In this document: piece after piece, positions 18,848 to 35,184 of the stretch
Layout of the letters: the number at the start of each line of letters is the position of its first letter
How positions within the stretch are numbered: position 1 is the first letter of the stretch
NCBI GenBank assembly: GCA_949751835.1
Contig: CATKHK010000081.1
Coordinates: 62,001-126,000, forward strand
DNA length: 64,000 nt
DNA from: Blepharisma japonicum
Lineage: Eukaryota > Ciliophora > Heterotrichea > Heterotrichida > Blepharismidae
Direction: 5' to 3'
Made by a program: the position numbers and the translations under genes
The notes under the pieces: generated by a model
Seen by the model: the letters and a program-made list of their open reading frames with translations, nothing else
Told to the model about the DNA's origin: nothing
Databases searched by the model: none

Positions 18848-19471
18848 TGACAATTTAATATTTATATTATTAACTATTACCAATAGCTCGGATTCTATTA
18901 CAAATATTTAATAGATAAATTATTATTGAGAAAAGAATAATTATGGAAAAATTATAAGAAGCTATTGGAAAAACTTCTTCATGATAAACAGCTATTTATA
19001 GCAATATGATAACTTTTTGATCGTTAATTAATTTGCGATATTTTTGAGACTATGAAGCGGGTTGTGATGAAATTTTGCATTAGTAGCTCTTAATTTATTT
19101 TTTTAAATCAGAAGATCAAGGAGCATTGCGTTTATTTTGCATATATATGTTTATGCTCCCACACATTTTACGAAGGAATAATTCAATTTAAGAATAATGA
19201 CTTTGTTGCAAGATTAAATTTTATTATTTATCATTTAGTGTACATTAAAACCATTTAAGAATTAAAATATCTTCATAGTTTTACGCCATTTTGTCCAGTT
19301 CTTTTTTAATTTCGCCTTTTCTTATAATCTTATTAATTTCTCAAAAGCACATTTGCTGTCCAAGAATTTACAGTCATTTTATGTTTGCATAATGATTTTA
19401 AATTATTATAAAAAAATTCTTTTAAAATTTGCTGCAAAAATTAACTGCTATGTGGATTTTAATAAATTAAA
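18848..19471. other. Divergent intergenic region
   Basis: 624 bp between kinase copy 4 (minus) and the CK1-like kinase (plus). It is AT-rich with no frame or RNA gene seen, and should hold both promoters. Confidence 0.5.
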
Positions 19472-20737
19472 ATGACATCCGATCTAATAGGAAATCGATT
19501 TCAAGTTATATCAAAAGCTGGAGAAGGACAATTTGGGAGGGTCTTTCTATGTACGGACTTAAAGACCCAAAACCAATGTGCAGTAAAAATCCCATCAGTT
19601 TCAAATAAAAATAGCTTTCCTCAGCTACTGAACGAAGGCAAAATTTTAAAGGCAATACAAGGAGGAATTGGAATTCCAAAATTTATTAAATTTAGTAATA
19701 ATGAAGACGAACTATTCTTAGCGATGCAATATTTAGGCTCAAATTTAGAAGAAAAGTTCACAAGATGTAACAAAAAGTTTTCACTAGCGACGGTGCTCAC
19801 CATAGGGGAGCAGCTATTAGATAGGCTTGAATATATCCATCGCAAAGGATACATTCATAGAGACCTCAAGCCACGCCAACTCTTATTAGGCAATGGATCT
19901 GATTCTTCTACTCTCTATGTGATTGATTATGGCCTCTCAAAACAGTATATCCAAAAATCAATGAACTTGCATATCCCTTATACAGAAGGCAGACCCTTTG
20001 AAGGCACCGCATATTTTGCGTCACTGAATACTCATATGGGAATTCAGCAAAGCCGACGAGATGATCTCGAAGCCTACATATATATGCTTGCATATTTTTT
20101 GAATGGTACTTTACCATGAATTGCTGCAGAAAAAACAAATAAAATAACTGAAAGGCAAATCAAGCTTATGAAAAGCAGACTTTCTTCAACTGGTCTGTTT
20201 TTAGACAAGCCAGAAGAGTTTAACAATATCTTTAAATACATCAGAAACTTAGAATTTGATGCAGAGCCTGACTATGATTATATCAGAACTCTTTTAAATT
20301 CCATAAGGATGAAAAATAAATTAGTAGGGGTGGGCTTTGAATTCAAACCACATCGCAAGAAAAGAGTCCTAAAAACTTCAAGTGTAAAGCTTCCGAAATC
20401 CCATAAAGTTCTGGCTGAGGTATCAAAAAGCTTTATTGTTGCTGAAGAGGACAAAGAAAGCTCAAAGAGCAATGGAAAAGGAAACTCTTCTTATGAAACC
20501 TATCCTCTGACTCCTAAAAAGAATTTTGAAGGAAAATGCATGTGGATTGACGATGACTCAACACTATGCTTGCTTTCCCATCCCGAAATCAAAGATAGAA
20601 GCATTTTAGTCAGCAACAAAGAAAAAAGCCCAGAACTCAATAAAGAAAATTTAGTTGATGCTGAAACAGTCCCAGTTTATCGAGAAGAAATTGTGGTGGA
20701 CTCAGAAAGAGATAAAGCAAGCTGCAAAATTTTTTAA
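19472..20737 (+). CDS. Casein kinase 1-like Ser/Thr kinase with CAAX-like tail
   Basis: 421 aa with one TGA read as Trp (GTLPW, a conserved CK1 position). The kinase domain covers about residues 6-290. It has glycine loop AGEGQFGRV, ATP Lys39 (CAVKIP), helix C Glu about 55, catalytic HRDLKP (Asp131), DYG at about 152, and the CK1 hallmark block EGTAYFASLNTHMG followed by QQSRRDDLEAY. The residue normally Asn after HRD (HRDxKPxN) is Gln136, which is unusual for an active kinase and may alter metal binding. The C-terminal ~120 residues are a low-complexity, Ser/Lys/Glu-rich tail. The tail ends ...DKASCKIF, i.e. Cys plus three residues, a possible prenylation box that would place the kinase on a membrane. 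Ciliates have many CK1 paralogues, so the exact substrate is unknown. Confidence 0.88.
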
Positions 20738-20825
20738 AACTAATTGAGACAATAATACACAAGAAATTGTTTAAATTAAATGATTATTAATTTAACCCAT
20801 TTATAGCAGCAATTTTCATATTTAA

Positions 20826-21722
20826 ATGAAGCTGGTAGTTTTATTGCTATTTTTGGGGGTTGCATCTGCATTGAGCTGCAATCCTTATGGAGTTGCTGCA
20901 ACAGTAGACGCTAGTGTGTATTCCTGCAACAATATCACAGTATCTCGTGCAAATTATCAAATTCTTAAAAATATTACTAAATGTGAAACACATGTGACAC
21001 CTTATAATTTATGCATATGTCCAGCTGATTATCAAGGAAAAACTTGTCAAGGTAAAAGACAGACTTCTTGTATTCTTTCAATGATTTCGCCTACCAGTGG
21101 AGATTGCGATACAGGCGGAAATTATAACAGCAAATTAAAAGGGTTCCCTGTATGCATGAAGGTTGCTATGGATTCAGTCGCTTCAATTGTAATCCAATCC
21201 AATTGTACAACACAAACAAATGGGCCGTCAATTGATTCTTATTACTTGTCAATGACTGATATAAATGAAACGCAAGTTGTAAAAAACTACACCTTTAAAT
21301 ATGAAGTCAATGATGGCAAAGTTTACTCCTCTGGGCCATTAAGTGCATCCGTTTCTACTAAATTTATAGACTATAACCGCCCCACAAGTTATAACGGAAC
21401 TTTACAGGAAATAGTTGGCGCTTCCGCAGTTTTAGGCTCGCAGACTTCAATCAGCTATAATTTAAATAGGGTTCCAAAAAACTGCTTAAATAGTGGAAGA
21501 CTTTATTATCAAGTCTGATATGATGGGAGCTTAAATTTTGTTACAAGTAATATTCTTAGAAGTACAATGGATGATCAGAACTGATCACCTCCTAATTGAA
21601 ATTCCAAATTCCCAACTGGACTAGTTATTGGGCTAACAGTTGGGCTATCAGCTGCTCTCATTATTGCTGTCCTTATAGGCCGATACTATTATATTCAGTA
21701 TAAGTTGAAGAAAGAAAACTAA
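20826..21722 (+). CDS. Type I membrane protein with EGF-like Cys motif
   Basis: 298 aa with TGA as Trp. A clear signal peptide (MKLVVLLLFLGVASALS) is followed by an extracellular region with about ten cysteines. It includes an EGF-like CICPADYQGKTC and many N-glycosylation sites (NIT, NCT, NET, NYT, NGT). A single transmembrane helix (GLVIGLTVGLSAALIIAVLI) and a short basic cytosolic tail (YKLKKEN) end the protein. It is probably a cell-surface or pellicle glycoprotein; the ligand is unknown. It belongs to no family I can name. The gene follows CK1 by 88 bp on the same strand and ends TAA. Confidence 0.75.
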
Positions 21723-21768
21723 GGTATAATTAAGTATAAATAAATGATAATTGACATATAATTCCAAG

Positions 21769-22222
21769 ATGGTTGATGAGCCTCGCAAGAAAAAGCAAGC
21801 TGAAGAGCAACCTTTTAGGTCACCAATTGCTGATCCATTTGCAGAGAGCTCTCTTTCTAAAAAAATAGTGAAGGTTACGTCAAAGTGTAAGGGTTATTGT
21901 AGTTTCTGAAGGAGGATTGGCAAAGAGAGGAGTCAAAGAAGTGGTAAAAGCGCTGAAGAAAAAGAAGAGAGGGATCGTAATTTTGGCAGGAGACATTACA
22001 CCTATTGAACTGGTGGCTCACATTCCTGTCATTTGTGAGAATAATGGGAATCCTTATATTTATGTGAAAACCAAGGATTACTTGGGAACTGCTTCACTGA
22101 GTAAAAGGCCGACCACAGTTTTCATGCTTTCGAGACCTCCAAAGGCTCATGATCTGAAGGATGCCTATGATGAACTTTATGAGGAAATTTCAAACATAAA
22201 CCCATATTTACAAGACAAATAA
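21769..22222 (+). CDS. NHP2: H/ACA snoRNP protein NHP2 (L7Ae family)
   Basis: 145 aa after removal of a 16-nt intron (21887-21902) that changes the frame. The basic N-terminal arm is followed by KKIVKVTSKF, then the L7Ae core: AKRGVKEVVKAL, IVILAGDITPIELVAHIPV, CENNGNPYIYV and SKRPTTVFML. The last two motifs are the kink-turn RNA-binding and specificity loops of NHP2/SNU13. The length and the C-terminal AYDELYEEISN extension fit NHP2 better than SNU13 (about 128 aa). NHP2 is a core subunit of the box H/ACA particles that guide pseudouridylation of rRNA, and of telomerase RNPs. The start at 21769 lies 46 bp after the preceding stop. Confidence 0.85.
21887..21902 (+). other. 16-nt intron
   Basis: GTAAGGGTTATTGTAG in NHP2. 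Removal joins 'KVTSK' to 'SEGGLAKRG' through a split Phe codon and shifts the frame by one, as the conserved L7Ae core requires. Confidence 0.9.
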
Positions 22223-22420
22223 GTTAATTATGTTTGATCGTTGAATTAGTAAGTCTCATAATCTTTTATTATTTTACTTATTTAGTGCATTTATTTTATG
22301 TTTTTAGATAAAATTCATTAGCATTTCAAAATTTTTATGTGACAAATAAGAAAAAGATATGAACTGGCTACTTAAAACTTATGGTTATGATATTTAAATG
22401 ATAGAAGTAAATAATTGAAT

Positions 22421-23050
22421 ATGAACAAAAAAATCAAGCAAAGCCATGCTAAAGGCTTAAATCTTGCCAGAGCCCTTTCAAATCCAGAGATTTATACAAA
22501 TGTTCAGCCATCTGCTTCAAAACGCAGCCCTTCTACATGAAGCATTGATACAATTACCCCAGATACAACCCCCACATCTAAAGGCCCAACCAAGCCAGTT
22601 CATATCTTGAATTTGCAAATCCCAGTCAATATTTCGCCTACTTCAAAGTGCAAAAGCACTAGAACCCCAAAAGTTTGCGAGCTGAACTTCCATAAATCAA
22701 ACAGGATTTTGCAAAAAGAAACCACGACAACCCGAAATAAAGTAACTTCTGACTACTCAAAAACTGAAGAAATTCTGAGGGTAAAAGAACAAAATTCCAT
22801 ACTGCAAAAAACAATTCTAGAGCTGATGGGAGAAATTGAAAAAACTAAAAACGAAAGCGAAAAAATGAAAGATGATGAAAAAAGAATGAAGGAATTAACC
22901 TCACTGATTAAAAAAATTGCAAAAGAAAATGAAGAATTGAAAAAGAAAGGGAAAATAGTTGGGAAAACTAAAAGACATATTGAAGAGATGATGGATGGGT
23001 TTAAAGAGCAGTTTTCAAAATATTTGTCAGCAAGGGAAAGCGAAGGATAA
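22421..23050 (+). CDS. Short coiled-coil protein of unknown function
   Basis: 209 aa with one TGA as Trp (SPSTWSIDTITPDT). The N-terminal ~110 residues are Ser/Thr/Pro/Lys-rich and probably disordered. Residues ~110-190 form a Glu/Lys-rich coiled coil (EEILRVKEQNSILQKTILEL and following). The start is ATG at 22421. No family is recognised. It could be a scaffold or cytoskeletal linker, but nothing specific supports a role. Confidence 0.65.
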
Positions 23051-23348
23051 ATTAATAGTGTAGATTTGAAAATAGTTCTGTTTATCCATATAATAAATGC
23101 ATTATGGCTAGGAAACTCCGCAATCTGACTTTTCCCAAAAGACTTCAAACTTTTGTAGCTAGGTCTTTCTCCATCACTTAGAGTTTTAGCAGATCTATTT
23201 ACTATAGGATCAGGAACTCAGTCATTCTTAGGCACTATTTATAGAAAATGGCAAAGATATTATATAGCAGCATAATACATTATTATGCCTCTGCTTGGAA
23301 AAGATATATTATTTAAGTAATAATATATTAATAAATACTTTATTAACA

Positions 23349-25268
23349 TTAACTCATTTTTGCTTTTTTCCTCAGTCGATTTTCCAAGTGATATCGAGGG
23401 TCAGAATCCCCTTTAATTTGATAATGTGATTTCAAAGTAAAAAATCATATGTATAGAAATCCCATAAAAGAATACACAGCAATAATAGTGTCAAATAAAT
23501 ACGGATATTGCTGTGGCGGCTCCATAAACTCCATCAGGTGAATTAGGATTATTCCTATATACCACAGCGTCAAATTGTGTCCTTTACGGTCTTGAAAATA
23601 ATTCAGTGTTTTAATTACGTCTCCAGCCATAACATAAAAAACAATTGATAAGCAAAAGTATGCAAATCTCAGTCCATCCTTAATCATAAGTGGGTACATA
23701 CTAAATGTTCCCATTAAAACGTAAAATCTAAATAATTCAGGTGTGTCTATTACTGATAATAAAGAAAATGGCAGCAGAGGAATCAAGATCGTTTTCTCAT
23801 GCACATGATAAGAGAACAAGAAAAACGATAAAGAAACCCCTGAAAGTGCATGCAAAAAGCTCAAATTAATTGGTTTCCTTTTGAATAAAAGCACCAAAAA
23901 TGGAAGTGATGCAGAAAGCGTAAGTAGTGCTGAGAGCAGTGCAAGCAAATTTGCAGGGAATAGTTCTTTGTATTTAATAAAAATAGATGAGACGCACCAA
24001 AAAGTGGCCACTTTATCTTCAAATATTCCTCTTTGTAATGGGAATATTCTTGAAATAACTTGTGTAATATCGCTAATTGAGCTTATCCAAGGTATCCAGA
24101 TAATAATCGTTGTAATAATTCCACAGCCAATAATATTGGATAAAGTCAAAACAATTTCTGCTGCCATAATTCCCCATCTAATATTTGGTTGAAATCTCAT
24201 ACTCTGATGCCTCGCCCGTTTCCACGCTTTTGCCATCCAAATGCAGCCAAAAGGAAGCACATAATAAAGCGCCATTTGTTTAAAATTCAAAGCAAGAGCA
24301 AGCACTACCGCGGAAAGTCCTAAATAATCATAATAAACCAATACAACAGCCCAAAGCGAAAACCCTAACATAATGCTGTTATATTGAAAGTGTCCATTGT
24401 CAATCAATAATAATGGAGGTGATAAAAATATAAGTATGATTGCTGAGTACTTTATTCCTCCTGATAGGTATCGATAATACATTTTAAAGAACATAAATAC
24501 TGCAGGAATAAATACAAATAAATCACCTAATATCACACTTAGCCTCATAAAGAGTTTATGGCTTGATGTTAAATATCCTCTAGATTCTCCTAAAACCATA
24601 GACTCAGGCTCTATCATGGAACTGACAGATCCCAAAAACCATGAATGCCAAGCAGTTAAAGGAGGATAATCAAGTCCCCAGTACTCCAAATCATTCTCCG
24701 TTGAATCTTTATACCACTTATCAGGAGACAAATTCGTCGTTATTTCCATTCAATGCCTTTGAGCTTCATAATCTCCATATTTAGGATGATTATCATATCC
24801 AGAATGGGGCTGTGCGATCATTGCAACTCTTACCAATAAAGCTAGCAAAACCACAATAATAATGCTTCATTTTCAGTACATTGAAAATATTTCAGCCAAA
24901 AGCGATCTTCCACGAGCTTTATATGAGTGATGGGCGTAATGGACAAGCTTTTCTATGACTGAAGACAAATTTATGACCGGAATTCAGGATTCTCCTAGGA
25001 CATGCTCAAGGATGTTTTCATCGTCGTAAAATTCAGTGAGGGAGGTTAGTTTGTCGGAGACTGAAAGAGATACTTTGGGGGATTGGAATGGGTAGCGCTC
25101 TGGCAGATGAATGAAAAATTTTACTGGAAAGGTTTGGACTTCAGTAATTATTTCTAAGCTTCTGCTGCAGTCAGGGAAATCGAGGGTATAGTTTGTAGGT
25201 TCCAGCTTTTTTAAGAGCTCTCTTTCTTTTTGAAGCCTTGTTTCGCGGATGTCATTCTTATCTTCCAT
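23349..25268 (-). CDS. ALG6: ALG6 glucosyltransferase fused to an N-terminal E2/UEV-like domain
   Basis: One open frame of 639 aa with TGA as Trp. Residues ~170-600 are ALG6, the ER enzyme that adds the first glucose from dolichyl-phosphate-glucose to the lipid-linked oligosaccharide. Visible motifs are YGDYEAQRHWMEIT (catalytic-loop Asp166), DLEYWGLDYPPLTAWHSW, HKLFMR and DNGHFQYNSIMLGF, plus many membrane helices and a basic C-terminus. Residues 1-~120 look like a ubiquitin-conjugating (E2) fold. They have an N-terminal helix RLQKERELLKKLEP, the PERYPFQSPKV turn, and the conserved E2 Trp in ESWIPVINLSSVI, itself encoded by TGA. The position of the E2 catalytic Cys reads ENILEHVLG, so it would be an inactive UEV-like variant. 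With a standard stop the two parts would look like separate genes, but they are in one frame with no stop between them. Confidence 0.82.
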
Positions 25269-25511
25269 TTTATATTTCTAATATAACACTCTTATGCTTT
25301 AGACTAATTAAAGAAGCAGAGATTAGTAAAAAGGTTAAAAAGTGTTAATCAACTAAAAGAAACTGATTAGAACGCCATAGACAGATATTTGATATTATAT
25401 TTGAAAATATACACATATGATATAAAATTTGATAGCCTTTAATAGTTTTACATCATCTGAAAATCATAGCGTGATATTTATATTCAATACACAATTTTAA
25501 TTTAAAATTAA

Positions 25512-27392
25512 ATGGGTGGTTGTTGTGGCTGTTGCGCTCATCAAGATTATTATGATGAAATCAAAGAACTCGATGAAGATCTTGTGGACCTTAAATCAAT
25601 CTCAAAGCCAACTACTTCAAGCATTCTCACATCCCCAAGCCCTTCTAATGATGAAATAATTAGAGATTTTCTTTCAGGATTTTATCAATTGATGCACAAT
25701 GAACAAAAATCCTTTTCTGCCTTTATCCATTCTTTTATAGAATACCTAGGAAACGCAGGACAATATATTCATGAAATTGGAATAAATACAAAAATCAACC
25801 AAATGAGGGATTCTCAAGGCACAGATAAGATGAAGAAATATATGGAGTTAAGAATGGAAGAAACTGATATGGAAAAAAGGTTAATTGAACAGCTTGTACA
25901 GGTTGCTGAAAGATTGCATGAAATTGATAATGAAAAGGCAGAACAATTAAAAGACGAGTTTAATTTACTTTTTACTCTTGTGGAAGAGACTAATCCATTA
26001 AAATCTCAAATCGAGCTATTAAAAAACAAAGAAGATGAATATTTGTCACAAAAAGGAATGAATTTAGCCCAGACTGCTCTGAGGTTTGTAAATCGAATTA
26101 AATTAGAAAGAGAATTGACTTCAATCAAAATCCAACTTATGGATAAGAGTCAAGGGACTGGTGATGATGTCAAAAAATTAAGGGAAATTGAAGAAGTTGT
26201 GGAAAAAGCTTATAAATTGAGTGCCAATAATCTTCAAAAGGTATCTGAAGAAATGACAGGAAAAGAATATGGAAAATTTGAGGAGATTAGAAAAGAAATT
26301 TCAGAAACATATGAATTTAGTGCTGAAGGTATCATGGATTCAATTAAGCATAAAACTGAAGCTATTTTTAAAATTCAATCAGAAGTCAGCAGTTTTTTGA
26401 ATGAAAATTTAGTTGAAAATGAAATTAAATCCCTAGAAAGAAAAGTGAAAGAGTTAGTTGAAAATTTGGAAAATACAAGAAGAGTGCACTTGCCTGTTGT
26501 ACAAAAAGCTTTTGGAATTAATGAAAAATACAGCCCTTTAAGTTTTAATGAAGAAGAGCTCAAGCATAATAGAGGCGGATATAAATCTGTTTCTGATCTA
26601 CATATAAAAATAACTGATTTATTGGTAGCAATCTCTGCCCAAGATAATTATTTGCCTAAAACAGTCGAAGGAATCAATGAAATCCATGATAAATTTTCTA
26701 ATATAGATACTCAGCTCCAAGATTTAATAAAAAAAGAAATAAGGGACTTATCCAATACAGTTTCACTAGAGAATTCTGAGCTAAGAGAAAATTTAGAAAA
26801 AATTAAAACACTCTCAAGTGGGCTAGAAATCGACCCTTTCATGAGTATCATTCAATACACATTACAAATATCTGAAAGAATGAAAATCATGGATGATATT
26901 GATTCATTAAGAAAATCCGCCAGGGATATCTACAACAGAGATAGTATTAAATTAAAGAGTTCATACAATGAAATGCTCAGCGAAATGGAATCCAAAAAAT
27001 CATTAGCCGAGTCAGAGTTAGAGCAGCTTCAAACTAAGCTAAAATCGTTAGAACACAGTGCGGAAAAAGATAAAGAATTAATAAATAAATTCACCCAGCT
27101 GAGCTCTGAGCAAGAGCTAGAAATCACAAAACTGAAAAATTCTTTATCCTCTCTCACAGTTGAAAGTCAAGAATTCACTGATAAAATATCCAGTCTAGAA
27201 GAAGAAAATGAGTCTTTAGAAAAAAATGAAAAAAAAATCAAGAAAAATCTGAGAGAAAAAGAAAACGAAGTAAGAGAAGCTAATGAAAAAATAGTAGTTT
27301 TGGAAGAAGATATTGAAAAATTAAAGGTAGAATTACACAATCTGAAAGAAGCTTTGGAAAAAAAAGAAAGCGAAGTTGAGGTTATAGAATAA
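25512..27392 (+). CDS. N-terminally lipidated long coiled-coil protein (predicted)
   Basis: 626 aa, no TGA and no visible intron. The N-terminus MGGCCGCCAHQDYYDE has Gly2 suited to N-myristoylation and four nearby cysteines suited to palmitoylation, so stable membrane attachment is predicted. Residues ~50-480 are largely helical, with a conserved-looking segment 'VVQKAFGINEKYSPLSFNEE'. Residues ~480-626 are a long heptad-type Glu/Lys coiled coil. No known family is recognised. A membrane-to-cytoskeleton tether at the cortex or ciliary membrane is a reasonable guess from architecture only. It shares a 243-bp divergent promoter region with the ALG6 fusion gene. Confidence 0.8.
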   Translation: MGGCCGCCAHQDYYDEIKELDEDLVDLKSISKPTTSSILTSPSPSNDEIIRDFLSGFYQLMHNEQKSFSAFIHSFIEYLGNAGQYIHEIGINTKINQMRDSQGTDKMKKYMELRMEETDMEKRLIEQLVQVAERLHEIDNEKAEQLKDEFNLLFTLVEETNPLKSQIELLKNKEDEYLSQKGMNLAQTALRFVNRIKLERELTSIKIQLMDKSQGTGDDVKKLREIEEVVEKAYKLSANNLQKVSEEMTGKEYGKFEEIRKEISETYEFSAEGIMDSIKHKTEAIFKIQSEVSSFLNENLVENEIKSLERKVKELVENLENTRRVHLPVVQKAFGINEKYSPLSFNEEELKHNRGGYKSVSDLHIKITDLLVAISAQDNYLPKTVEGINEIHDKFSNIDTQLQDLIKKEIRDLSNTVSLENSELRENLEKIKTLSSGLEIDPFMSIIQYTLQISERMKIMDDIDSLRKSARDIYNRDSIKLKSSYNEMLSEMESKKSLAESELEQLQTKLKSLEHSAEKDKELINKFTQLSSEQELEITKLKNSLSSLTVESQEFTDKISSLEEENESLEKNEKKIKKNLREKENEVREANEKIVVLEEDIEKLKVELHNLKEALEKKESEVEVIE

Positions 27393-27515
27393 ACTTTAAT
27401 GATTTTTTCATTTTATCAAGTATTTATTATATTAATTCAATATACCAGATTTAACATTATACTTTTTGCTATATTATAAAACAATCCAGTTTGCATATAC
27501 CTGAAAATTAATATA

Positions 27516-29279
27516 ATGGAACAAAAAAGTCACAAATGGATTTTCAAAGTACTTGCCAAAAATAATGCCCACGTTTCTCTTCTTGATACTTTCTTTTTGA
27601 AATCTGGAACCCTTGAGTTTCTAATTTACACAGATAACGACGGCTACGTTCGCCAAAAGCTCCCACGAGATCTCCAATATCGAAATCTTGGCGACCTCTT
27701 AATTAGCCTTAAAAAAGAGTTCAAGGCTTTCCAAAAAGTCTCAAACTTCGGAAAATACGCTTGCATTATTGTTGGCCGAAACTTAAAAGTAAAATTAGAT
27801 CTTGCAGGTCTAAAAGAATACCGAAACCGAGTACAAACTTTCCCACTGTTACAGTATCTCCAAAAAATAAAACCACACAATCGAAGCGACGAAGGCTGAT
27901 ACACACTGACTTTGACTTATACAGAAAAGACCTACAAAAGTGAATTTTTATGAAAGGAAATAGATAAAGAAATACCTAGCACCCAAAGACTTGTCTTTGA
28001 GATCGCTAAAAATATTGCCACAGTTATTATAAGCCTTGTTGAAAAAGAAGAAGGAGATAGAAAAAGGGTAGTAAAATTGGAGATGAATTTGACCCTTGAT
28101 GACTTAGGAGTGCTATGGCTCATGAGTTGTAACTGCACGTTAAACCTAAAAGAAGAAATGATAAAAAATGAAACAACTGGGAACGAAATTGTGCAAATTT
28201 TTGATATCAGATCGAGGACTAGAAAAAAGACACTGTATAAGGATAGAAATGAAGACTCAGATAAACCAAAAATTATAAGGAGTGATTCACCTATTAGAAT
28301 TAAGAGTCCAAATAATTCTAATAATGGGCCTACTCCACGGCCTAGCGAAGAAGGACCTCCTAATCACCCTCCTAGTCATCCTCCTTTAAACAGAACTTTA
28401 TCAATAACCGCACAACGACTTTCATTTGGCATAGACCAAAAATCTATAAATGGCGGAATGTCTCCAGAGCATCGTAGAGTCAATAGGTCCAAAACCACCC
28501 AGTATGCTCCATTTTCGTTCCATGCTTTCAATTACAAATTTTTCCGTGACCCAGACCCATGTAAAAATAGCAACGCATCTTTAACAGAAGAAAGCTCGAT
28601 GGAAGAGGATGAAGACTCTTTATCAGATGGCAGCATAAATGTCCATTTTTTGGAAATTTTGGGACGTGAAAGATGCAAAATCAAATGCAGAGTGGGGAAT
28701 CCTTTAAGAAATCCAACACCAGGGGTTGAAGAACTGAAACAAGAAATGAGACATATAAGGGAAAGAATAAAAAGCTATGAAGAAGAAAGTGCTGCAAGGA
28801 GGAATATGAATAGACGAAATTCGAGGTGCATAAGGAAAAATTCATGAATCGCGAGTAAAAAAATCAAGCCAAACCAATTTTATGATAATATTTTGAGGTC
28901 TGATACAAAAACTAATTTACAAACAATGAAAGTGGAAAATGGGCTGCTATCGCCTTTATCAAGTATAGATTCTCCAGCTTCGCCTTTGAAATTAAAAAAG
29001 ATTGCATCAAAAAGTATTGAAAATGGCAAGTCGAGGACACCTAAAACGCTGCCAAGTCATAATGCTCAGCCTTTATTAAATACATTACATTGAAAAGCAA
29101 ACACAGCTACTCATAGTCCTTCAAATTTCAAAGATTCTAAAAAAATTGGAAGCCCAAATCCTTCCCTTCCAGCATTAAGTAGAATAACTTCGCATCTTTT
29201 GCAAGTTCCGAAGAATAGAAAGCTTGAGTTTAATCCACTATCAACCTACCACTCCAGATTCCGTTCTCTTCAAACATAA
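27516..29279 (+). CDS. Uncharacterised protein with N-terminal beta-rich domain and disordered tail
   Basis: 587 aa with several TGA read as Trp; without that the frame would break into four pieces. Residues 1-~210 alternate hydrophobic strands (HKWIFKVLAKNNAHVS, WYTLTLTYTEKTYKS, GVLWLMSCNCTLNLK) and could be a C2-like or other beta-sandwich domain, perhaps the NT-C2 type. This is a weak guess. The remainder is low complexity: Pro-rich (PSEEGPPNHPPSHPPLN), acidic (EESSMEEDEDSLSDG), a short coiled coil near residues 405-430, and Ser/Lys-rich to the end. It may be a cytosolic scaffold with phosphorylation sites. It ends TAA at 29277-29279. Confidence 0.72.
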
Positions 29280-29501
29280 CAAATAGCATGTATAGAGACC
29301 CAATTAATTTTAACTGATAATTTAGAAAATAAAAGCAGATTATTTATAGATCCAAGAATTTATTGGATAATTTAAATTAATGCAAGATATGATTTATCCA
29401 GTAATATTAATTACTTATTTTTTCCCAAATTTTCTTCTCATTATGATTATGTATAGATTTATATCTAATTGATACCTTAAAAATCCTAGTTTCTTTATTT
29501 T

Positions 29502-29960
29502 TTAATTAGGAACTTTTAATAGCTTAGGAACAAGGTGATCATCACAGTGTAGCTTCAATTTCAATGAATCCACAAACTCAGCCCCACTTTTTTCATCAAA
29601 CAGCTCTGGATAATATTTTCGAAATAGAATTTCTAGCATCTCTAGTTCTTGATCTGATCCAATATCATCAATCTGATTCTTGCTTTTAAACTCAGAGATG
29701 TTTACATTAAGATCCCCTATCAGCTGCACAACTCTGTAACTTGCTCCATTTTGTTCCATTAAAGCTCTAAAAGTGTTTCTTCTTTCTTCTAAACTTTTAT
29801 CATAAGGTGATGGAATTGAAAGATAGTCAAATTCTCTTCCATTATTCAAGCGAAAGACTTCTTTTAAGTATCATAGATTGTATTTATCAAGATTCCATGT
29901 TGTCGCTAACCCTATAGCAGCTCCAGTTGAGAAGAGTAAAGCCTGCCTAAAAATTTGCAT
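29502..29960 (-). CDS. Small protein with N-terminal membrane anchor or targeting signal
   Basis: 152 aa with one TGA as Trp. It starts MQIFRQALLFSTGAAIGLAT, a signal-anchor or mitochondrial-type leader; a membrane anchor followed by 'TWNLDKYNLWYLKEVFRL' is also possible. The soluble remainder is acidic and helical (ELEMLEILFRKYYPELFDEK). The family is not recognised. The start is only 51 bp from the divergent ATG at 30012, so the two genes share a very short bidirectional promoter. Confidence 0.65.
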
Positions 29961-30011
29961 CTTTTATAATAAAGATTGTTGGAATATTTTATTTGCTAGG
30001 AATAATGAAAA

Positions 30012-30542
30012 ATGAAGGCTAAACGGAATATGACACCTGATATAAAAAGGGAAAAAAGCTTAAGGTTTACACCAATTTTCCATAAGCATTTCAATGAGAG
30101 GTCTGAAAGCGTAAAAGAAGTGAAGCAAAGAAGCATTGTCTATGAAAGATTTGCAAATAGGTCGCCTTCACCAACTGGAGGGTCAGAAGAGATTTTGCAT
30201 TTAAAAGCTGAAAGATTGGAAGCGTTCAGAGATTTGTTTTCTTATGAAGAACTTTATGATCATAAGTTGTCAATGAGGGTGAGGATTAAAAAAACATTAG
30301 ATCAGTATAGAGAAATTTCGATAAGAATGAAAGAAATGAGTAGCCAAATTGAAGAGGAGAAAGAACTGTTGGGGTTAATTGAGAATGAGCTTAGTATACC
30401 TTTGGAAAGCTTTCAAGTTGAACCAACAAAATTTAATGAAATTCAAAGAGATTTAAATGAAGAAAATAAGCGAAACGTAGAGGATTCAATGAGAGAAAGC
30501 AAAAATATATGGGATCTTGAAGAGTCGAATGAGGATTATTAG
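30012..30542 (+). CDS. Small helical protein of unknown function
   Basis: 176 aa. A basic N-terminus (MKAKRNMTPDIKREKSLRFT) is followed by a possible SPSPTGG phosphosite cluster and two helical segments. Residues ~60-95 contain 'ERLEAFRDLFSYEELYDHKL', then a coiled coil to ~125. The C-terminus is acidic and Asn-rich. There is no TGA, intron or known domain. It is divergent from the gene ending upstream at 29960 with a 51-bp spacer. Confidence 0.65.
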   Translation: MKAKRNMTPDIKREKSLRFTPIFHKHFNERSESVKEVKQRSIVYERFANRSPSPTGGSEEILHLKAERLEAFRDLFSYEELYDHKLSMRVRIKKTLDQYREISIRMKEMSSQIEEEKELLGLIENELSIPLESFQVEPTKFNEIQRDLNEENKRNVEDSMRESKNIWDLEESNEDY

Positions 30543-30644
30543 GAGCCAAACTGAGAATGTGGCGGTGAACTGTTGTAGATGTATATAGTTAAAGAATAGC
30601 AAGATTAGCATAAGGTAATAATTAGCAAGATATTTTATAGTAAG

Positions 30645-31040
30645 TTATGTAAGTAGAGGATGCGATACAGGTTTAAAGTCATAAAATACGTTGACGTCTC
30701 CGCTTTGAATCAGTCCAAGCTCCATAAGGCTTGCAGTCAGTGGTGCTGGATCATCGGGCCTATATTTATGGAGAGAAATAGAAATATCCCTTGCAGCACC
30801 TCCATATAGCTCAGCAATTTTATCATGAATTGTCATGACTTTTGTATTTATGGGAACTTCAAGCTGAAAATCCATGGGATAGCCAAGTGGATTCACCAGT
30901 TTCATATTCAGTCTTACAACAGGAAGTGCATTTCGGGGTATTTCTGGCACATCTGGTACGTCATAAAGATTCGGTAACAACTCTCGCTTTTTCTTTCCTA
31001 GCTTTTTCTTTTTCCCTTTTTTTAACTTCTTGCCTGCCAT
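30645..31040 (-). CDS. Ubiquitin-like fold small protein
   Basis: 131 aa. An extremely basic N-terminal ~25 residues (MAGKKLKKGKKKKLGKKKRE) is followed by PNLYDVPDVPEIPRN and a beta-grasp-like domain. That domain runs NMKLVNPLGYPMDFQLEVP, TKVMTIHDKIAELYGG, DISISLHKY and LMELGLIQSGDVNVFYDF. The order of strands, helix and closing 'G-D-V' strand resembles ubiquitin-like domains, but there is no terminal Gly-Gly, so it is not a conjugated modifier. Similar small ubiquitin-like proteins occur in cilia, but I cannot name an orthologue. It is convergent with the gene ending at 30542 (102 bp apart). Confidence 0.7.
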   Translation of the reverse strand: MAGKKLKKGKKKKLGKKKRELLPNLYDVPDVPEIPRNALPVVRLNMKLVNPLGYPMDFQLEVPINTKVMTIHDKIAELYGGAARDISISLHKYRPDDPAPLTASLMELGLIQSGDVNVFYDFKPVSHPLLT

Positions 31041-31402
31041 TTTAAATTATCTAAATTACCTTTTAGAATATTTTTTATTGCAGAAAGCACTCTATTTATA
31101 CCTGAAAATTTTCATACTGGATAGAAAATGGTTTTTAAATGTTATTGAATTGTAAAATTTTTCTATTGACTGCCTTATAAGTAATAATTATAGGCCTTTT
31201 TAAGCATATAAAATTTGTTTTTCCTTGGAAAGCTAATTAATTTCATAATTTATAAAATTTGCGCATTTATGCAACAGTACTCTTAGATGTTATTAATTTA
31301 TTTGATTAAAATTTTAATTTTTGTATTTGGTATTTATTATCATTCAGATAACGCAAAGAGCATCAGCGTGTTGACGAAATCTTTTCATGCTTCTTCTATA
31401 AT
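31041..31402. other. Divergent intergenic region
   Basis: 362 bp of AT-rich DNA between the ubiquitin-like gene and the first SHIPPO-like gene. Its last ~60 bp (TTCAGATAACGCA, CTTTTCATGCTTCTTCTATA) recur before the second SHIPPO-like gene and probably form the duplicated promoter. Nothing else is seen. Confidence 0.6.
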
Positions 31403-33094
31403 ATGTCTAACAATTGTTTGGATCTAGAACATACATTTCCGTATGCAGAATCAAATATAGATCGTTACTTATCTCCCTATTCATCTCGCTCTCGCTCACC
31501 AAATTCTGGCACCTCTAACTTAAATTCGAGAAGAATAAGAGCTAATTCTTTATTAGGAGAATTTGAAGAACTTGAATTAAAGTTTTCCCAATATGATATG
31601 ATTAAAGTTCCTGAATTTCGATTTAAGAAAGAAGATTTAATTAAAGAAATAAAAAACCTCACTAATTTTTCGGCAACACCATCTCCAGAGTCTGGAAATA
31701 AAGATCTTAGTCTTAGAATAAAAAGGGATTTACTGTCATCACCATTTACAAAAACTAGGTTCAAAAGTCCTACTTTTAGCATTAATTGCGTTAACTTAGG
31801 GCCTGGTAATTATTCACCAAATCAAAAGAAAATAATTTCAGGGGGATATTTCCCAATTCAACCCAGATTTGATGAAACTTTTGAAGATAAAGTTGAATGG
31901 TTTTTAAGCAAAAGAAGAAAAAAGAATTTAAGCTTTTCTAATAAAATAAGTGCTAGAAATCAAGACATGACACAGTATTTGCCTGACAAAAAATCACAAA
32001 TACATTGTGAAAAGGTGCATAAGCACAATATTACTCTTAAAACTGTACAAGAGACTAAGAGGAGGATAGATAAGATGAATAAAGAAACAAAAGAGGACAA
32101 ATGGAAATATAAATTGCAGAGATTCATGTTTAATGAAAAAAGGGCAGAATTTAAACAGATTTTAACATCATGGATTGTTCTAGCATCCATCGTTGGGCTA
32201 CATACTATTTTCTATTATAAAACGGAAGGAAAAAAGGTAAACAATATTTAGAAAAGACGATCTAAAGTACGAAAACTAATCTCATTTCTTTGTTCAATGT
32301 CAATAATTTTAGGAAAACTAAAGTTATCTTTAGTGAAGATTAGAAGAATGAATCTTATAATAATATTAAACAAGAATGTTAAGAGGATAAAAAAATGAGT
32401 AAACAAAAGAAGGTGTTTGCATTTAAAAATTTTGAATACTGAAATCTTTAAAAGAACAAATAATAAAAATACCCTTTTACAACTTATGACTCAATATTGA
32501 AAATATAAAAGGACACTGCAAGTCGGCCTGAAAAGGATAATCGAAATTAAGAAAGCAAGATTTTATGCATTAGGTTTGCTATGGATAAAAATTCAATCAA
32601 ATCTAATAAAAAGATACCGAAAAAGCGGGAAAATAAAAGTTGATAAGCCTGAAAAATTGATACCACAAAAAGTAATTGAAGAAAATCTTCAAAAACACTT
32701 TCAAACTCAAGCAAAATTATACATAGAAAAATTAAATAAATATAAAGTTGAGTGTAGGGAAGCAGATGAATACAAAGAAAGGGAATTAAAGGAAATCGAA
32801 TTTGATGCTTTACTTTCAGAAAAGATTATTTATGAGATAACCGAATGTGCCTACCCTCAAGCTCCTACTTTTATTTTGTACTCAAATGAAAATTTGTTAA
32901 AAAAGCGCGTAATGCAAGTTATTCATTTTTATGCAATAAGTAAAATCCAAGAAGATTACCCCGCTCCAAAAGTCAAAAATCGATTCCAAAGGAGATCAGT
33001 TCAAATATTCCCTGAAGAGTATCTCAGATTTCAAAATAAAATAAAGCATAAAGATGAATCTGAAAGAAGACGCCCTTCTAATTTTGCATTTTAA
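31403..33094 (+). CDS. SHIPPO-like / basic coiled-coil protein, tandem copy A
   Basis: 558 aa after removing a 15-nt intron (32237-32251) and reading TGA as Trp. Without this it looks like two unrelated frames. The N-terminus MSNNCLDLEHTFPYAESN is followed by a Ser-rich stretch, then LNSRRIRANSLLGEFEELEL. An isolated SHIPPO/STPGR-type motif, NLGPGNYSPNQ, comes next, and then IISGGYFPIQPRF. The second half is strongly basic and helical (KRRKKNLSFSNKI; LMTQYWKYKRTLQ). It ends in a conserved domain with FILYSNENLLKKRVMQVIHF, RRSVQIFPEEYLRF and RRRPSNFAF. SHIPPO motifs are typical of microtubule inner or surface proteins of cilia, so an axonemal role is possible. Copy B at 33514 is a whole-gene tandem duplicate including intron and promoter. 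Confidence 0.75.
32237..32251 (+). other. 15-nt intron
   Basis: GTAAACAATATTTAG, phase 0, ending in an in-frame TAG. The same position in the paralogue (34330-34344) carries a matching 15-nt intron, and coding similarity between the two genes continues on both sides. Confidence 0.92.
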
Positions 33095-33513
33095 TAAATT
33101 TTGAATATTTAAATTTAATAATGAGCTATATTTTTCGCCAGCACTCCACATATCAAATAAAGATTTGAAGCAACCAGAACTTAATTTATAAAATGAATAT
33201 AGGACTGATCCTAGTAAACAATTAAATGGATGTTTATAAATATTTTTTACACTTTTTAAGATCATCTAAAAAAGGTGCATTTAAGGTCTTAGTATAGTAA
33301 TATAAAAAGAATTTATTGATTTAAAAAGCGATCTAAAGAATAGTTTAAGGAATCAATTAATGGCTGGTATAATAAAAAATTACTTATTATTTCTTTGCGG
33401 AGAATTAATCTTACTTTATTAAAAATGTATTGATCCTTGCATTTCAATAAGGTTCAGATAACGCATCAAATTATTAGAAATTTGACTACATCTTTTCATT
33501 ACTTCTTCTATAA
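33095..33513. other. Spacer between SHIPPO-like tandem genes
   Basis: 419 bp. The start resembles the 3' flank of copy B (AATAATGAGCT). The end carries the duplicated upstream motif TTCAGATAACGCA and CTTTTCATTACTTCTTCTATA just before the ATG. No separate gene is seen. Confidence 0.6.
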
Positions 33514-35184
33514 ATGTCCAAAAATCGCTTGGACCTGGAACATTTATATGTATATACAGAGTCTGATAAGGATCAATACTTATCCGCCTACTTATCTTGC
33601 TGTCGTTCATCGAATTCTGGGACTTCTAACTTAAATTCGAAACGTATAAGAAATAATTCATTATTAGGAGAATTTGAAGAGCTTGAATTAAAGTTTTCCC
33701 AGTATGATATGCTGAAAGTTCCTGAATTTAGACTTGAAAAAGAAGATTTAAAAACACAAATCACAAATCTTCTAGCAACACCATCTCCAAGATCTAGAAA
33801 TAAAGAAATTAATTTTAGATTCCAAAGGGAATTATTTCCAATACCATATAAAAAAGCTAAATTCAGAAGTCCTGCTTTTAGCATTAACTTGGGACCTGGA
33901 GATTATACACCAAATCAAAAGAAAATAATTTCAGGAGGATATTTCCCTATTGAGCCAAGGTTTGATGAATCTTTTGAAGATAAAGTTGAATGGTTTTTAA
34001 GTAAACGAAGAAGGAGGAATTTAAGTTTTTCGAATAAAATAAGTGAGAGAAACCAAGACATGACTCAATATTTACCCGACAAAAAATCAAAAATACATTA
34101 CGAAAAAGCAAATAAGCATAATATTACAATTGAAACTGTGAAAGAAGCAAAGAAGAGGATAGATAAGATAAATAGAGAAAAAAAAGAAAACAGATTGAAA
34201 TATAAAATGCAAAGATTCATATTTAACGAAAAAAGGGTGGAATTTAAACAGATTTATAAATCATGGATTATTCTAGCAGCTATTATCGGGTTGAATACTA
34301 TTATATACTATAAAGCAGAAGGAAAAAAGGTAACCGATATTTAGAGAAGGTGAGTTAGAGTGAGAAAACAAATCTCATTTCTTTATTTAATGTCAAGAAT
34401 TTTGGGTAAATTAAAGCTACATTTAGTGAAAAATAGAAGACTTAATCTTATGTGGAAATTAAGCAAGAATGTTATGAGGATAAAAAAATGAATTAACAAT
34501 AGAAGGTCTTTACTCTTGAAAATTTTGAATATTGAAATCTTTAAAAGGAAAAAGAACCAAAATACCTTTCTTACGCTTATGACTCAATATTGAAAATATA
34601 AAAAAGCATTGCAAATAGGCCTGAAAAGTATTATAGAAATTAAGAAGGCAAGATTTACTGCACTGAATTTATTATGAGGAAAAATTCAATCAAATCTAAT
34701 AAAAAAATACCGAAAAAACGGAAAAATAAAAGTTGATAAGCCGGAGAAATTAATACCGCAAAATATAATTGAAGAAAATCTTCAAAAATACTTTCGTAAT
34801 CAAGCAAAATCATATTTTGAAAAATTTAATAAATATAAAGCTGACTGCCGAGAAATTGATGAGTGTAAAGAAAGGGAATTAAAGGAAATCGAATTTGATA
34901 CCTTACTTTCAGAGAAGATTATTGATGAATCAACTGAATGACTCTACCCTAAAGCCCCAACTTTTATTTTATACTCGAATGAAAATATGTTAAAAAAACG
35001 TGTCGTACAAGTTATTCATTTCTATGCGATAAGCAAAATCCAAGACGATTGCCCGTCTCCGAAAAACATAAACCGATTGCAAAGAAGATCAATTCAAATA
35101 TTCCCTGAAGAATATGCCAGATTTCAAAATAAAATAAAGCATAAAGATGAGTATGAAAGAAGACGCCCTTCTAATAACGGATAA
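33514..35184 (+). CDS. SHIPPO-like / basic coiled-coil protein, tandem copy B
   Basis: 551 aa after removal of a 15-nt intron (34330-34344), with four TGA read as Trp. It is co-linear with copy A: MSKNRLDLEHLYVYTESDK, LNSKRIRNNSLLGEFEELE, SHIPPO-type NLGPGDYTPNQ, IISGGYFPIEPRF, a basic helical second half, and the end RRSIQIFPEEYARFQ with RRRPSNNG. Because the two genes stay aligned throughout, including in-frame TGA codons and the intron site, both look functional. Copy B is slightly shorter in the N-terminal linker. The role is unknown; ciliary microtubule association is a guess from the SHIPPO motif. Confidence 0.75.
34330..34344 (+). other. 15-nt intron
   Basis: GTAACCGATATTTAG, phase 0, at the same codon boundary as the intron in copy A. 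The internal sequence has diverged, but the ends and the A at position 10 are kept. Confidence 0.92.

Follow-up and report, generated by a model that had tools for sequence, protein, structure and literature searches.

A 64,000-nucleotide stretch of the Blepharisma japonicum genome (contig CATKHK010000081.1, positions 62,001 to 126,000, hereafter the window) contains a gene in which a domain resembling ubiquitin-conjugating enzymes (E2) is joined, within one reading frame, to the N-terminus of the glucosyltransferase ALG6. The favored interpretation (probability about 0.65) is that the gene encodes a genuine ALG6 with a cytosolic N-terminal domain of E2 fold that lacks the catalytic Cys, that the two parts were joined before the surrounding block of genes was duplicated, and that the domain most likely acts as a binding module. 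ALG6 is a conserved and much studied enzyme of the endoplasmic reticulum (ER) that starts the addition of glucose to N-glycan precursors, and to our knowledge little is known of its regulation from the cytosol. A natural, conserved, and duplicated E2-like fusion is a direct clue that something cytosolic is kept beside ALG6 in B. japonicum. It also draws attention to a family of Cys-less E2-like proteins, encoded in the same genome, that Pfam matches weakly.

A Single Reading Frame Joins the Two Parts

Coordinates are window positions, the gene lies on the minus strand, and translation table 4 (TGA = Trp) was used throughout. In-genome comparisons refer to the assembly that contains the window (45.2 Mb, 224 contigs). 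The window copy of the gene (copy A, table 1) encodes the E2/UEV-like domain, a short basic linker, and a complete ALG6-type glucosyltransferase, in this order, and a second copy of identical architecture (copy B) is located on another contig (C25). The initial annotation, which was based on the letters of the window, had described a single joined frame with a YPFQSPKV motif, a TGA-encoded conserved Trp, and no catalytic Cys, and all four features were recovered at the positions listed in table 1. The codon of Trp95 is TGA in both copies. Five further conserved Trp positions (132, 197, 391, 569, and 608) are encoded by TGA in one copy and by TGG in the other, which supports the reading of TGA as Trp inside the ALG6 gene. 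The available text of a genome paper on Blepharisma stoltei likewise reports that UGA is read as Trp and that the prevailing intron lengths in that species are 15 and 16 bp (PMC9942806). In a screen of the fused frame, GTR..YAG stretches of 15–18 nt occurred once in copy A (16 nt) and twice in copy B (both 17 nt); the copies have none of them in common, and hidden short introns were rejected on this basis. Copy A contains one further in-frame ATG (codon 130). Copy B opens only three codons before its ATG and lacks any further in-frame ATG ahead of codon 150; codon 150 is located inside the predicted first transmembrane helix (TM1), and an ALG6 whose first membrane helix is complete therefore needs the extra domain. 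The whole fused protein had no match in NCBIfam at E ≤ 1.

Both Copies Are Conserved and Lie in a Duplicated Block

The proteins encoded by copies A and B are identical at 561 out of 639 residues without a single gap. The similarity does not extend into the flanks, where neither the 240 bases before the frames nor the 300 bases after them align better than shuffles do (the observed alignment score is reached by 414 and 166 out of 500 shuffles, respectively); the first nine bases past the stop codon agree between the copies. Over the whole frame, dS is 1.35 and dN is 0.072 (Nei–Gojobori), and the same method gives a dN/dS of 0.043 for residues 1–112 and of 0.056 for residues 135–639. Differences at the first, second, and third codon positions number 6, 6, and 40 within residues 1–112 and 1, 1, and 12 within the linker (residues 113–134, 19 out of 22 identical). 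Based on the dN/dS values and the codon-position pattern, all three parts of the protein behave as coding sequence under purifying selection. A chance reading frame is ruled out by the identically fused second copy, the codon pattern, and the unlike flanks. One stretch of 54 residues is identical between the copies (54/54) with 20 synonymous codon changes; permutation makes the length of this run a borderline case, and its third positions evolve somewhat more slowly. The idea that the extra domain is exceptionally conserved relative to the enzyme was rejected as not significant (P ≈ 0.05 by permutation, P = 0.34 by Fisher's test), and the third positions of the domain are somewhat slower (17/49 compared with 82/157).

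The genomic context of the two copies was compared by matching 182 open frames of the window (at least 80 residues, stop to stop, both strands; antisense matches uncounted) to C25. Three further frames (19466–20734, 25512–27389, and 27480–29276) match at 64%, 66%, and 67% in a colinear block that keeps order and orientation, and ALG6 is the most conserved matched gene in the block (88% identity). Since both copies are fused and located in a colinear duplicated block, the fusion most likely predates the block duplication.

The block as a whole extends over window positions 19466–35181 and C25:331000–358400, as a duplication of a segment or of the genome would leave it. The tandem genes at 31352–35181 match further along C25 at 30–40% identity; the adjoining frame pairs at 31352–33091 and 33514–35181 match the same two C25 units and probably belong to a tandem gene family. 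Neither a tRNA gene nor a Blepharisma-type telomere repeat pair was found in the window.

The Glucosyltransferase Part Is Assigned to ALG6

The larger part of the protein matches the Pfam family Alg6_Alg8 with 385.6 bits (cut-off 25) and the chain of yeast ALG6 (6snh_X) with an E value of 1.5e-76, in line with the ALG6 identity originally given to the gene. The alignment to 6snh begins at residue 136, whereas residues 1–134 match E2s. Both loops of ALG6, YGD(F/Y)EAQRHWMEIT and YWGLDYPPLTA, are kept in the alignment, and Asp166 is aligned to the Asp that we presume to be catalytic in yeast ALG6. ALG6 is the sole glycosyltransferase (6snh, with the QRHWMEIT loop) among the nine PDB sequences matched, a list that included no ALG8 structure and thus limits the contrast between ALG6 and ALG8. 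Beyond copies A and B no further ALG6 was found in the genome. The family has just one other member in the genome, an ALG8-like gene on contig C5 that carries a different loop, STDFEVHRNWMAIT, which we take to be a marker of ALG8; the readable frame of this gene begins right at its first membrane helix. The available text of PMC12041525 describes a catalytic Asp in ALG6 that is equivalent to that of PimE. On these alignments the fused gene is best assigned as a genuine ALG6, the Dol-P-Glc-dependent alpha-1,3-glucosyltransferase of lipid-linked oligosaccharide, rather than an ALG8, and with its ALG6 motifs kept the glucosyltransferase part presumably functions in the usual way at the lumenal face of the ER.

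A Kyte–Doolittle scan (19-mer) places TM1 directly after the linker, with values of 2.69 in copy A and 2.71 in copy B compared with maxima of 0.97 and 0.93 within residues 1–115. The active site of yeast ALG6 is oriented toward the ER lumen and its N-terminus toward the cytosol. By analogy with this topology the extra domain would be located on the cytosolic face of the ER, as the initial annotation had placed it, and the basic linker ahead of TM1 fits such an orientation.

The N-Terminal Domain Is E2-Like and Lacks the Catalytic Cysteine

Several hallmarks of an active E2 are missing from residues 1–134. Leu87 occupies the column of the catalytic Cys, the HPN motif is replaced by LTS (residues 74–76) followed by a three-residue insertion, and no Cys is conserved: copy A contains C34 only, which is Ser in copy B, and copy B contains none. 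A catalytic E2 is ruled out on these grounds, and the domain cannot be a normal E2 or form a normal ubiquitin thioester. Analyzed alone, residues 1–129 score 23.1 bits against the Pfam family RWD, which has a cut-off of 22.8, and 22.6 bits against UQ_con, which has a cut-off of 27, with an E value of 8.6e-5 in both cases; the RWD scores on the domain alone were 23.1 and 23.7 bits, and the scores within the whole protein were 19.2 bits for RWD and 18.8 bits for UQ_con, both below their cut-offs. The Tsg101-type Pfam UEV family (PF05743) was not reached (13.5, 12.8, and 13.3 bits compared with a cut-off of 27, E values of 0.07–0.11). The best PDB sequence matches are UBE2W and E2s of the Ubc4/UBE2D type, with E values of about 0.004–0.04.

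To place the domain, a query built from both ALG6 copies was compared with in-genome profiles by hhalign, each comparison with 100 column-shuffled controls. The E2 profile was based on 26 out of 30 fetched loci, one of which (L029) contributed just a 37-residue piece, and four loci (L007, L020, L022, and L024) were excluded because the matched stretch or its frame contained stop codons other than TGA. The domain scores 47.1 against these E2s (probability 94.7, E = 6.1e-8; best shuffle 21.4) and 61.9 against a family of six Cys-less E2-like genes described below (probability 96.9, E = 1.8e-10; best shuffle 19.2), with a second comparison to the same family giving a probability of 96.3 and an E value of 1.6e-9. 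The score against five in-genome RWD matches is 22.9 (probability 12; best shuffle 18.2). A plain RWD domain was disfavored: the Pfam cut-off is reached for the domain alone, but the profile comparison with the RWD matches is weak. A phylogenetic analysis of 38 sequences (the 2 ALG6 domains, the 6 family members, 25 E2s of more than 100 residues, and the 5 RWDs; no UBE2V or Tsg101) unites the ALG6 domains and the six-gene family in one clade (support 100) apart from the 25 E2s, and the six-gene family alone forms a clade (support 99) that is sister to the ALG6 domains; the tree was rooted on RWD, the supports were read after re-rooting, and it has long branches and a short alignment. By profile comparison the domain is probably E2-like rather than RWD-like and groups with the six-member Cys-less family. 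It appears to be a UEV in the wide sense, that is, an E2-like sequence without a catalytic Cys. The initial proposal of a Cys-less E2-like domain is supported, with hhalign scores above all shuffles, and is refined by the grouping with the six-gene family and by scores below the cut-off of the Tsg101-type UEV family.

Structure prediction, the fold check suggested with the initial annotation, gave weak results. The single-sequence fold was too poor to interpret, and no entry titled E2 was among the best 50 of 78 fold matches. A further fold prediction used 7 out of 11 loci after L067, L071, L073, and L074 had been dropped by eye (cut short or not E2-like). A weak structure prediction models a helix at residues 101–119; since the chain goes from this helix into the linker and TM1, there would be little room for the C-terminal helices of an E2. 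A search of viral contig and genome contig collections found no relatives.

A Six-Gene Family of Cys-Less E2-Like Proteins

The six in-genome genes closest to the ALG6 domain encode proteins with an N-terminal Cys-less E2-like domain (DGRDLL...W), and members are 33–42% identical to the first. The family matches PDB E2s with an E value of 4.1e-7, and UQ_con is matched by six out of six members at E ≤ 1 (best E = 3.3e-8). Like the ALG6 domain, to which it is sister in the tree, it has Leu at the position of the catalytic Cys (its D[IL]L aligns with NIL) and the conserved Trp. Unlike in the fused gene, what follows the E2-like domain is not ALG6 but a conserved region that Pfam does not match convincingly; most members have a charged tail, and their identity to the ALG6 domain is 22–31%.

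Matches to UQ_con are very numerous in the genome, with 126 out of 133 above the Pfam cut-off, although exon pieces may be counted apart. They are located on C21, C68, C79, C107, C170, and other contigs, many of them close together on one contig. A further locus (L055, C17:443898–444158) encodes what by eye is a WD-repeat-like protein, in which RWD is matched weakly further along the frame (E = 0.005, below the cut-off).

Table 1. Positions of the fused gene, its parts, and related loci (window positions unless a contig is named).
Feature	Position	Strand	Basis
Fused coding sequence, 639 amino acids, ATG to TAA, no intron needed	23349..25268	-	Table 4 translation; same architecture in second copy
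In-frame TAG four codons 5' of the ATG, fixes the frame start	25278..25280	-	Sequence reading
E2/UEV-like domain, residues ~5-118	24915..25256	-	Pfam on residues 1-129 and hhalign
YPFQSPKV, residues 59-66, aligned to E2 YPF..P	25071..25094	-	Alignment
Leu87 codon, column of the E2 catalytic Cys (NIL aligned to xIC)	25008..25010	-	Alignment
Trp95 (TGA), aligned to the conserved Trp past the E2 active site	24984..24986	-	Alignment
Short basic linker, residues 119-133, precedes TM1	24870..24914	-	Sequence
Predicted first transmembrane helix, residues 134-152	24813..24869	-	Kyte-Doolittle 19-mer
ALG6-type glucosyltransferase domain, residues 145-609	23442..24836	-	Pfam Alg6_Alg8, E 5.2e-115
Asp166 in YGDYEAQRHWMEIT, aligned to YGDFEAQRHWMEIT of 6snh ALG6; taken as the catalytic Asp	24771..24773	-	Alignment
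Copy B of the fused gene	C25:334792-336708 (same genome)		Identical architecture
Six-gene Cys-less E2-like family	C3, C8, C40, C50, C59, C84 (L041-L046)		Six matches at E <= 0.01, query included

Proposed Role and Alternative Explanations

We infer the topology, the enzymatic activity, and the binding role of the fused ALG6 from the comparisons above. A Cys-less E2-fold (UEV-like) domain was most likely joined to the cytosolic N-terminus of ALG6 before the block was duplicated and would hang on the cytosolic face of the ER, ahead of TM1. There it most likely acts as a docking module that holds a partner protein beside ALG6, and the partner would determine where the enzyme sits, how fast it turns over, or how active it is. 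Docking is suggested because Cys-less E2 folds are known both as binders (Tsg101) and as fusions to enzymes (UEVLD). Any link of the domain to ubiquitin or to ER-associated degradation is speculation, and the ubiquitin-type interaction and the tie to ER quality control or degradation that were initially suggested for it were not supported.

Mms2/UBE2V pairs with Ubc13, and the ALG6 domain could similarly be a true ubiquitin-system module that binds ubiquitin or pairs with a Cys-bearing E2 of the ER, which would tie ALG6 and the supply of lipid-linked oligosaccharide to ER-associated degradation. This explanation is doubtful but has an appreciable chance: the domain is E2-like without a Cys, as are UEVs of ubiquitin pathways in the available text of PMC12513931, it has a predicted position on the cytosolic face, and the genome holds the many E2 matches counted above, whereas the Pfam UEV family is not reached and the nearest in-genome relatives, in a tree without UBE2V and Tsg101, are the uncharacterized six-gene family. 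A broader form of this idea, which we consider unlikely, is that a ciliate lineage wired the glucosylation of N-glycan precursors to the cytosolic ubiquitin system through an ER-anchored pseudo-E2 built into ALG6, with a partner (ubiquitin, an E2 or E3 of the ER, or a product of the six-gene family) that senses or adjusts how much glucosylation the ER can perform. A neutral passenger, captured by fusion and folding merely so that the insertion of ALG6 stays undisturbed, would make the domain a spacer. The protein could tolerate a folded domain in front of TM1, but the low dN/dS over residues 1–112 makes such a role distinctly unlikely, as does the identical 54-residue run, although this run is borderline and its third positions are somewhat slower.

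The two remaining explanations deny either the kinship or the fusion. A chance similarity of a lineage-specific domain to E2s is highly improbable: the Pfam matches lie close to their cut-offs and the single-sequence model yields no E2 among the fold matches considered, but the hhalign scores against the E2s and against the six-gene family lie far above the shuffled controls, and that family itself matches both PDB E2s and UQ_con. A misjoining of two neighboring genes, by which a small E2-like gene is read into ALG6, gains some plausibility from the gene-dense genome with short intergenic regions that is described for B. stoltei in the available text of PMC9942806. It is largely refuted by the coding-type conservation across the junction in both copies, by the lack of a stop, a frame shift, or a common intron candidate, and by the missing internal ATG ahead of TM1 in copy B, and it is almost certainly wrong.

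Comparison with Known Systems

The ALG6 of 6SNH/6SNI, presumably of family GT57, shares the whole glucosyltransferase domain and both loops with the B. japonicum protein, and its alignment to that protein starts only at residue 136. UBE2W and the Ubc4/UBE2D-type E2s, the closest PDB sequences, carry a catalytic Cys, an HPN motif, and further C-terminal helices; in the ALG6 domain the Cys and the HPN motif are replaced and the chain leads straight on to TM1. UBE2J/Ubc6 are E2s of the ER membrane that face the cytosol, tail-anchored and catalytic. The ALG6 domain would also be an E2 fold tied to the ER membrane and facing the cytosol, but it is N-terminal, Cys-less, and joined to a glucosyltransferase.

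Full-text literature searches found no ALG6 that carries a domain of this kind; this result has little bearing on sequence databases, and domain databases such as InterPro were not searched. The available text of PMC4973528 gives Alg6 homologues in several other ciliates and is silent on an extra domain; a referee quoted there remarks that over-long sequences had been left out. A comparable arrangement is found in UEVLD (human UEV3), in which an N-terminal Cys-less E2-fold domain is likewise fused to an enzyme of another pathway, a lactate/malate dehydrogenase (PMC12513931, available text). According to the same source, Tsg101 is a binder of ubiquitin and of P(T/S)AP peptides, and its domain shares 56% identity with the UEVLD domain, whereas the ALG6 domain misses the Pfam UEV family and its fusion partner is a glucosyltransferase of the ER membrane.
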